Assembly: GCF_000703045.1 (NCBI RefSeq)
Contig: NZ_JNLJ01000001.1
Span: 835,501-899,500, forward strand
Length of the DNA: 64,000 nt
Direction of reading: 5' to 3'
Origin: Persephonella sp. IF05-L8
Lineage (GTDB): Bacteria; Aquificota; Aquificia; Aquificales; Hydrogenothermaceae
Below the pieces are notes generated by a model. That model was not told where the DNA came from. It made no database searches and saw only the letters and a program-made list of their open reading frames with translations. Numbering within the stretch: position 1 is the first letter of the stretch; every line of letters begins with the position of its first letter. Shown piece after piece: positions 22,481 through 25,605 of the stretch. Both the position numbers and the translations under genes were made by a program.

Positions 22481-22596
22481 GTATGTTTACCTCCCGAGCT
22501 TTTTAATATTTTCGGCCTAAACATTTTATAATAAAAGAGTTCACTTTTCGCATAGTTTGGAATAAATTATTCTGTATCATATTTAGGAGGTAAGGA

Positions 22597-22944
22597 TTGG
22601 ATAAATTCGCTGTTCTATCAGTGTCTGCGTTAATGATAGGAGGAATTAGCTGGTTTTTCTTTGGCAGTAAGGATAAAAAAAATGAAAATAGAGAAGTTTC
22701 CGGGAAAACAGAAACAATAGAACTTAATATATCAGGAATGCATTGTGCCGGTTGTGTTGCTGGTATAGAGGCTACCTTAAGAGCCACCGATGGAGTAATT
22801 TCTGCCTCAGTAAATCTTGCCACCTCAAAGGGTGTTTTTGAATATGACCCTGCAAAAATCTCCAAAGAACAGATAATAGCAAAGATAAAAGAGCTTGGTT
22901 ATGATGCCTCAGAAGATTTAGAAAATTTTGAAAAAAAAAGTTAG
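22597..22944 (+). CDS. Zero-frame product: membrane-tethered metal-binding (HMA) protein
   Basis: Without frameshifting, translation from TTG 22597 ends at TAG 22942-22944 and yields 115 residues. This is one membrane segment (about 3-22), a basic linker (KDKKNENR) that should face the cytoplasm, and a complete HMA domain (TETIELNISGMHCAGC to ELGYDASEDL). It would be a membrane-anchored copper chaperone analogous to the CopA(Z) product made from E. coli copA. Whether it accumulates is unknown. Confidence 0.6.
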   Translation: MDKFAVLSVSALMIGGISWFFFGSKDKKNENREVSGKTETIELNISGMHCAGCVAGIEATLRATDGVISASVNLATSKGVFEYDPAKISKEQIIAKIKELGYDASEDLENFEKKS

Positions 22945-24878
22945 AGGAAGAAAAAAGCCTTAAAAAAAGATTTTTTATAGCTCTTATCTTTACACTCCTG
23001 GTATTTTTATTTGAATTTTTAAAACTACCATTTTTGGAAAAGCCTCTAATCCAGTCTAATGAATTTTTAAACCTGAAAAATATACTTTCTCTGATATTTG
23101 CCTCTATTGTTCAATTCGGGGCAGGCTGGGAGTTTTACAGGTTTGCAATAGGTGGTCTGAAAAACAGAATTGCCGATATGAACCTGCTTGTCGTTATAGG
23201 GACTTCTGCCGCTTATTTTTATTCGGTTTTTGTTATATTTTTTCCTTTCCTTTTTCCTGAGAATATGAGGTCTACCTATTTTGGCGGTGCAGCTGCTATT
23301 ATCACATTTGTCTTACTTGGCAGATATCTGGAAAGCAGTTCCAGAAATAAGGCAACAGGATTTTTGAGAAAACTTCTTAAGCTAAAACCCCAGAAAGCAT
23401 TAATAATTGTGGACGGGAAAGAGGTAGAGGTGCCTGCTGATAGTATAGTAGTTGGGGATATTGTTGTGGTCAAGGCAGGTGAAAGAATTCCTGTAGATGG
23501 TGTAGTTATTGAAGGTTCAGGGGATATTGACCAGTCAATTCTTACAGGAGAAAGCCTGCCTGTTTTGAAAAAAACAGGTGATACTGTTTTAGGGGGAAGC
23601 CTTCTTGTTGATGGTTATATCTTAATTAAAGCCACAAAAACAGGAAAAGATGCATTTATATACCAACTAACAAAACTGGTATCGCAGGCACAGGAGAAAA
23701 AACCACCTGTTGGAAGACTTGCTGACAAAGTTGTTGCAGTTTTTGTCCCTGCTATTCTTATTATTTCTATTCTGACTTTTGATGTATGGTATTTGCTGGA
23801 TAAACTTGATATAGCATTTTTGTCCTCTGTTTCCGTTTTAATAATTGCCTGTCCATGTGCCCTTGGAATTGCCACACCGATTGCAATTGTTGTTGCAGTT
23901 AGTAAAGGAGCAAAAGAAAAAATACTGATTAAAAATCCGGAAATTATTGAAGGGATTAAGGATATTACCCTTGCTATTTTTGACAAAACTGGAACAATAA
24001 CAGAAGGAAAGCTCTCTGTTGTAGAGGAAAAAACATTTGATAAACAGTTTTTAAAATATGCTTATCCTGCTTTAAAAAACTCTAACCATCCTGTTGCAAA
24101 AGCTGTTTTGAAAAAAATCCCCGAATATGAAGCAAAACCCGAAAATTTTAAATCAATGGCTGGAAAAGGAATTATTGCTATAGTTGAAGGAAAAAGAGTT
24201 GTGGCAGGAAATAAAGTTTTATTGGAAGAACACGGATTTGTTATTGAAGAAAACTCTGAAGAAACAGAGCTTTTTATAGCTGTTGAGGATAAACTTGTTG
24301 CTGCTTTTTATCTTAGCGATAATCTCAAACCTGAAGCAAAGGCTGTTTTGGATAAATTAAAAGAAAAAGGGATAAAAACCATTTTATTGACAGGAGATAA
24401 AAAAGAAGTAGCAGAGAAAATATGTGCCGAGGCTGGTTTTGATGAATGCTTTGCCCAGCTAAAACCTGAGGATAAATACAGAATTGTAAAGGAACTGCAA
24501 CAAAAAGGTGAAAAGGTGATGTTTATCGGAGATGGAATAAATGATGCTCCTGCCATGGCATCTGCAAACGTTGGAATAGCAGTTGTCCAGGCAACAGATA
24601 TAACAAAAGAAACTGGGGATATTCTCCTTTTAAGAAATGATTTAAGTTTAGTTTTAAAGGCAATAAATCTTTCTGCATTTAGCATGAATGTTATAAAACA
24701 AAACCTGTTCTGGGCATTTATTTATAACATTATCGGGATACCTGTTGCAGCAGGGATTTTATATCCTGTTGCAGGAATACTGCTTAAGCCTGTTATTGCA
24801 GGAGTTGCAATGTCTTTTAGCTCGGTAAGTGTTGTTCTAAATGCCCTTAGAATAAATAATGCCAGATTAGGAGATTAA
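22597..24878 (+). CDS. copA: Copper-type P1B ATPase, joined by a -1 frameshift at an A9 run
   Basis: Read with a -1 shift in the A run 22931-22939 it gives about 760 residues. Order: TTG start behind aggaggtaagg; N-terminal membrane segment; HMA domain with GMHCAGC; frameshift; transmembrane segments beginning RFFIALIFTLLVFLFEFL; TGES (LTGESLPV); CPC metal site (IIACPCALG); DKTGT phosphorylation site; HP (NSNHPVAKAV); GDGINDAP. These make a Cu+-exporting ATPase likely. The ATPase frame opens only at 22932 and has no usable start codon until TTG 23034, inside the membrane region. The extra N-terminal membrane segment is unusual. Confidence 0.85.
22931..22944 (+). promoter_or_regulatory. Slippery A9 run and in-frame stop of copA
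   Basis: GAA AAA AAA AGT TAG in frame zero. The -1 frame has a stop (TGA) at 22929-22931, so the two frames overlap only across the A run. About 20 nt downstream TAAAAAA-AGA-TTTTTTA (22961-22977) can fold into a weak AU hairpin. Confidence 0.65.
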
Positions 24879-24879
24879 T

Positions 24880-25605
24880 ATGCTTATTCTAAAAAAGCTT
24901 TCTGTTAAGCCTTTTGCAATTATAGGACACAGAGGTGCCAAAGGGGTAAAACCTGAGAATACAATTGCTGCCATTGAATACGGGATAAAATCCGGAGCTG
25001 ATATTGTTGAGATAGATATTAGAAAAACAAAAGATGGACAGCTTATTTTATTACATGATAAAGATTTTAAAAGGCTAACAGGTAGAGCTATCCCACCTTC
25101 ACAGCTGGATTTTGAGTTTATAAGGGAAAATATAACCATTGATGGTGAGCCTGTAGCTACCCTTGATGAAGCGTTGCAAACAGTTAACGGTAAAGCAGGT
25201 TTATTCATAGAAATCAAAGAGCCTGAAACAACTCAGGATGTTGTAAATAAAGTTTTAGAACACTTTGCACAGGAATGGGTGGCTTTTATCTCTTTTTATG
25301 AGGAGGCACTTGAGCAGGTAAAACAGATAGATAGTTCCCTTATAACAGGATTAATCTATATGAAACCTCCCGGAAAAATCCTTGAGGCTAAAGATATAAA
25401 TTGTGAGTTTGTTTTGCCTTACTATAAACTTGCCACAGAAAAGGCAATAAGATTTGCCCACAGACTAAAGTTAAAGGTTGTATCCTGGGTCATAAATGAT
25501 AAAGAAACTGTTAGGATTTTTGCAGAAAGAGGTAGTGATGGAATAGCAACCGACTATCCTGACCTTATGGTTAAGTGGAGGGAAGAGATAAAAAGGGGCT
25601 TATAA
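24880..25605 (+). CDS. Glycerophosphodiester phosphodiesterase
   Basis: 241 residues. Hydrolyses glycerophosphodiesters to glycerol-3-phosphate and an alcohol. GDPD signature: IIGHRGAKGVKPENTIAA with catalytic His/Arg, then VEIDIRKTKDGQLILLHD with the metal-binding E-x-D and second His. The C-terminus VVSWVINDKETVRIFAERGSD is typical. No signal peptide, so cytosolic. One base after the copA stop, hence in the same operon. Confidence 0.9.
   Translation: MLILKKLSVKPFAIIGHRGAKGVKPENTIAAIEYGIKSGADIVEIDIRKTKDGQLILLHDKDFKRLTGRAIPPSQLDFEFIRENITIDGEPVATLDEALQTVNGKAGLFIEIKEPETTQDVVNKVLEHFAQEWVAFISFYEEALEQVKQIDSSLITGLIYMKPPGKILEAKDINCEFVLPYYKLATEKAIRFAHRLKLKVVSWVINDKETVRIFAERGSDGIATDYPDLMVKWREEIKRGL

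Follow-up and report, generated by a model that had tools for sequence, protein, structure and literature searches.

A nine-adenine run conserved in copA of the Hydrogenothermaceae as the very likely site of a programmed frame transition

Layout of the copA locus

Is the copper-pump gene copA of Persephonella sp. IF05-L8, which is divided between two reading frames, a damaged or misread gene, or is it a gene from which two products are obtained by a change of frame? The window, by which we mean the whole 64,000-nucleotide stretch of DNA that was analysed, contains a 0-frame ORF for a membrane-anchored HMA protein (TM-HMA) that ends directly past a run of nine adenines (A9), and the Cu+-ATPase body follows in the -1 frame (Table 1). 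The sequence-only reading of this locus had described a complete HMA domain with an N-terminal membrane segment, a TAG stop and a -1-frame continuation of the ATPase. This description proved correct to the base, with the HMA frame running from TTG 22597 to TAG 22942–22944 on the plus strand; the -1-frame stop that it had placed next to the A9 run was also confirmed. The ATPase frame is open from TGA 22929–22931 to TAA 24876–24878. As had also been claimed, it has no good early start: its earliest ATG, GTG, or TTG is TTG 23034, which comes only once the first membrane helix of the ATPase has begun, and initiation there would truncate this helix. Among the orthologues described below, no conserved start codon of the ATPase frame was found before the first membrane helix, and an SD-like purine tract precedes the aligned start (ATG, TTG, or GTG) of the HMA frame.

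Table 1. Features of the split copA gene in the window and of the other split genes compared with it
Feature	Position	Strand	Remarks
Shine-Dalgarno sequence AGGAGG	22585..22590	+	Strong ribosome-binding site serving the HMA reading frame
0-frame ORF, TM-HMA copper-binding protein	22597..22944	+	115 aa; TTG start, TAG stop
Predicted N-terminal membrane helix, residues 4–22	22606..22662	+	From hydropathy; followed by a charged, Lys-rich stretch
HMA domain with metal site GMHCAGC	22723..22905	+	Pfam PF00403, E 1.5e-18
TGA closing the -1 frame, just 5' of the A-run	22929..22931	+	Absent from some relatives
A9 slippery run	22931..22939	+	HMA frame at the junction GAA AAA AAA AGT TAG; the run ends with the first letter of AGT, and G follows
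HMA-frame stop directly past the A-run	22942..22944	+	In orthologues with A9, stop at most 1–3 codons away
-1-frame ORF, P1B-1 Cu+-ATPase body	22932..24878	+	648 aa; without a usable start codon of its own
Split tRNA nucleotidyltransferase	L149 (G000:C1:117209-121219), ORFs L149:1992-2993 and L149:1348-2028	-	Split at A9
Balneolaceae copA loci	L106, L111, L165, L166, L168-L172, L177, L186, L188, L194

The domain content of the two frames was consistent with a copper pump and its metal-binding N-terminal part. Pfam matches comprised the HMA domain, E1-E2_ATPase (E 2.7e-58), and Hydrolase (E 2.3e-36). The ATPase half scored 571.6 bits with TIGR01511 (cutoff, 397), and the TGES, CPC, DKTGT, YN, and MxxSS motifs were read in the translation; as judged by this model and these catalytic motifs, the pump half is a P1B-1 Cu+-transporting ATPase (CopA). 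In the HMA protein, the hydrophobic segment found from hydropathy coincides with an AlphaFold helix at residues 3–22, predicted with low confidence in a model of modest overall confidence (mean pLDDT, 68), and the membrane helix is kept in 26 aligned orthologues. The protein is CopZ-like in its HMA fold and CxxC metal site (PF00403, GMHCAGC), but it differs from a small soluble protein of that type in its predicted N-terminal membrane helix. The Pfam search of the genome gave no other HMA match, and the TM-HMA ORF is therefore the sole CopZ-type candidate found in this genome. A distant DNA search of plasmids returned only partial P-type ATPase matches. Downstream, the copA stop adjoins the start codon (ATG) of a glycerophosphodiester phosphodiesterase-like ORF (window positions 24876–24880), and the two may share a transcript. 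The listed ORFs flanking copA included no recognisable copper regulator.

This layout predicts two products from one start. By default, translation from TTG 22597 would halt at TAG 22944 and yield a 115-aa protein (12.4 kDa) consisting of a membrane helix and an HMA domain. If the mRNA carried one more A (A10), or if the ribosome slipped by -1 on A_AAA_AAA, translation would proceed into the ATPase and yield a 760-aa pump (82.9 kDa; ~83 kDa) whose N-terminal part is the tethered HMA domain.

Conservation of the junction in the Hydrogenothermaceae

We searched 41 genomes of the Hydrogenothermaceae, whose members live in hot springs and vents, and found the TM-HMA frame in 31 of them, representing eight genera and including both isolates (e.g., Sulfurihydrogenibium yellowstonense SS-5) and independent MAGs. 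In all 31 orthologues, the TM-HMA frame ends at an A-run and the Cu+ ATPase is read in a different frame. Thirty of the 31 have a run of exactly A9, in constant phase, which is followed by G and, one to three codons on, by the 0-frame stop; an in-frame A10 occurred in none of the 31 copA orthologues. The single A8 orthologue belongs to G003 (L063, G003:C196), a fragmented MAG with 7% contamination, in which error and real variation are indistinguishable. After the shift, the ATPase is open to its end in 28 orthologues; in G013 the contig stops before the ATPase end, and in G029, a 55%-complete MAG, the ATPase is full of stops. The sequence-only reading had proposed comparing the junction in related genomes, where a simple intact gene would have spoken against it; no such gene was found among the 31 orthologues, and the A9 split layout was present in 30 of them. 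The same 30 show the comparative signature described in PMC1088944, namely a conserved nine-A run together with ORFs that overlap in relatives. HMA matches in the sister family lay mostly inside long frames of ~670–820 aa and left out the membrane helix, which is what fused HMA-ATPases would show.

These comparisons reject three explanations of the split. The main alternative named by the sequence-only reading was that one A is missing through a sequencing or assembly error. Homopolymers are indeed error-prone, and one MAG carries A8, but the identical error would have had to occur in all 30 genomes, isolates and MAGs alike, with A10 in none, which makes an error extremely improbable. Phase variation through DNA replication slippage in the run is just as improbable: the length of an A-run can differ between cells, but no A10 (ON) state was seen in the 31 genomes and the length is constant over eight genera. 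Finally, the two frames might be separate genes, with the ATPase initiating independently or by translational coupling, and a purine-rich SD-like stretch does lie past the HMA stop. However, the window offers no start within ~30 codons, the first candidate start there cuts the first membrane helix, none is conserved in relatives, and the frozen A9 would be left unexplained, so that separate initiation is also very improbable.

The conservation of the run was assessed at the codon level in an alignment of 28 orthologues, whose nucleotide identity ranged down to 54% and among which 20 were mutually <85% identical and 17 mutually <75% identical. The four junction codons showed zero synonymous change across the 28 sequences, whereas synonymous variation occurred in all 10 of the remaining columns where Glu or Lys is invariant. 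Over these genes, GAG accounts for 31% of the Glu codons and AAG for 23% of the Lys codons. A random distribution of the variation among the 14 columns would leave precisely the four junction columns unchanged in 1 of 1001 cases. The layout exceeds chance because it is kept in 31 genomes and because the synonymous freeze is confined to the junction, and the alignment indicates that the A-run is kept at the nucleotide level, beyond protein constraint. The dN/dS values were 0.07–0.14 for the HMA half and 0.09–0.19 for the ATPase half; both halves are under purifying selection, and the gene is therefore not decaying. Taken as a whole, copA of the Hydrogenothermaceae very likely contains a family-wide programmed frame transition, and a membrane-tethered HMA protein together with the pump is its likely outcome, as predicted from the two frames.

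Probable slippage on the A-run and other split genes

How the frame is changed can be approached through the run itself and its surroundings. RNA polymerase slipping on A9 would produce a mixture of A8, A9, A10, and A11 transcripts, of which the A10 transcripts would encode the pump and the remaining lengths an HMA protein that ends in a short tail; the chaperone-to-pump ratio would then be set by how often slippage occurs. Tethered to the membrane, the short product would serve as a CopZ-like chaperone or metal buffer and pass Cu(I) to the pump, a delivery role that we infer only from its domains. An A9 run in Thermus dnaX gives ~50% transcriptional slippage (PMC5009743, PMC1088944). On the sequence evidence, polymerase slippage appears more likely than ribosomal slippage, because the run length is conserved, the phase differs between genes, and there is no conserved internal SD or RNA structure.

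Specifically, no conserved internal SD was found upstream of the run, and the anti-SD pairing there was mostly weaker than elsewhere in the ORF; a few members (e.g., L022) have an SD-like site before the run. No conserved nested RNA structure was found upstream or downstream of the run. The downstream folds were mostly no stabler than shuffled sequences, the consensus fold of 20 sequences was empty (nested folds), although individual members do have a structure (e.g., L014, with a z score of -3.8). Third-frame stops near the run, which slippage would lead one to expect, were no closer than those at control positions of the same gene, and because this proximity equals chance, we do not count them as evidence of slippage. 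Long A-runs are rare in the genome containing the window (1.83 Mb, both strands), which has 16 exact A9 runs and only one run of ten or more. Another six or so A9 runs occur within ORFs that are intact, and A9 alone therefore does not mark a frame transition. The dnaX gene of this genome was considered as a further A9 gene and rejected, since its position coincides with no A9 run.

Programmed ribosomal -1 frameshifting on A_AAA_AAA (AAA AAA after GAA) would give the same two products from an unchanged mRNA. This sequence is a valid -1 heptamer in the right phase, all seven of its A's are conserved, and the ribosomal mechanism is used by E. coli copA (PMC7558416). However, the weak anti-SD pairing and the lack of conserved nested downstream structure argue against it, the ninth A is superfluous for a heptamer mechanism, and a tRNA nucleotidyltransferase gene of the same family keeps A9 in another phase; we regard ribosomal slippage as rather unlikely.

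This tRNA nucleotidyltransferase/poly(A) polymerase with an HD domain is a second A9-split gene in the genome of the window, likewise with a -1 frame change: PF01743 and PF12627 are followed by the HD domain in the -1 frame. Of the family's genomes, 16 have the gene split at exactly A9, two have it in frame with A10, and another two have it fused and lacking such a run. Its run is in the phase TTA AAA AAA AAG, unlike that of copA. Outside the family, the copA reading frame of 11 genomes of Balneolaceae (Rhodohalobacter and others) is interrupted past the second HMA domain, and the ATPase follows in the -1 frame; the run is A10 in ten and A9 in one, in several codon phases. In ~19 examined relatives, close relatives included, copA is fused. 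The tree placed the split copA genes of Balneolaceae and Hydrogenothermaceae in separate well-supported groups, and, given its starred branches, the state must have changed at least twice, indicating from the sequences that the Balneolaceae layout arose separately. Both the second split gene and the Balneolaceae phases appear consistent with polymerase slippage.

These other genes also bear on a neutral origin, in which an ancestor lost one A, slippage restores the pump, and the short protein is functionless. Frameshifted genes rescued by slippage have been described (PMC1088944), the Balneolaceae alternate between fused and split copA, and the tRNA nucleotidyltransferase gene occurs in both A9 and A10 states. 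Nevertheless, no Hydrogenothermaceae copA gene in the eight genera has returned to A10, the HMA ORF is preceded by an SD of its own and encodes a conserved membrane helix, no second HMA domain was found in the genome, and in E. coli this part of copA is likewise the source of a chaperone. A purely neutral origin is thus distinctly unlikely.

We therefore return to a programmed transition in copA that proceeds by RNA-polymerase slippage and yields a tethered HMA protein and the pump, to which, taken as one explanation, we assign a probability of about 0.6. The suggestion made from the sequence alone, of an independent version of copA with a membrane anchor and transcript slippage on an A-run, is accordingly the best-supported reading, its products and mechanism being predicted. 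A broader proposition, to which we give somewhat less than an even chance, is that A9 polymerase slippage is a standing control of product ratios in several Hydrogenothermaceae genes (at least copA and tRNA nucleotidyltransferase) and that the same A-run switch has repeatedly evolved in the copper-pump genes of unrelated phyla.

Comparison with known systems

No relevant literature on frameshifting in Persephonella or Sulfurihydrogenibium, and no prior description of an A9-split copA, was found among open-licence PMC papers. Copper or P-type ATPases are absent from the main text of the GeneTack survey of frame transitions (PMC3711429), and in the 2005 slippage survey, conserved 9A layouts occurred almost only in IS elements (PMC1088944). 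Beyond the sequence-only reading, the comparison adds the family-wide conservation, the polarity reversed relative to E. coli, the second A9-split gene, and the separate origin in Balneolaceae. If the explanation given here is true, copA makes a metal-binding protein and a pump through a frame transition that has evolved at least three times (in enterobacteria, Hydrogenothermaceae, and Balneolaceae), and the three transitions differ in their sites and include opposite polarities. The locus would also be strong comparative evidence for an A9 run on which the long product of a chromosomal, non-mobile gene depends and which is conserved family-wide. Annotation pipelines are expected to call such genes frameshifted or to report two genes. 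An earlier claim of frameshifting in human ATP7B has since been contested as an artefact of the reporter (PMC9548414), which cautions that results of this kind should be controlled.

The closest known system is the programmed -1 frameshift of E. coli copA, which produces CopA(Z) (Meydan 2017, Drees 2017, as cited in PMC7558416); the details compared here were taken from that review and the RefSeq record. In both systems, the gene of a P1B-1 Cu+ pump gives a short metal-binding product and the pump from one start, as deduced here from the ORF layout, and the shift falls directly past an HMA domain. However, the polarity is opposite: E. coli reads its pump without a change of frame and must shift to make the soluble chaperone, whereas here the short protein is the default product and is predicted to carry a membrane helix. 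The sites also differ, since the E. coli site reads CACCCAAAGGCTAAA, without an A-run, and a pseudoknot together with the nascent chain promotes its shift (PMC7558416), whereas the site here is A9. A nine-A coding run is also found in dnaX of Thermus thermophilus, likewise a thermophile, where two products are expected from one gene (PMC5009743, PMC1088944). In Thermus dnaX the long product is in frame, whereas here it would need the slip, as in Shigella mxiE (PMC1088944). With regard to function, the predicted short protein would resemble CupA of Streptococcus pneumoniae, a membrane-anchored Cu chaperone that serves CopA; CupA is encoded by a separate gene and has a cupredoxin domain, whereas here the candidate chaperone would take its HMA domain from the pump's own gene (PMC7558416).
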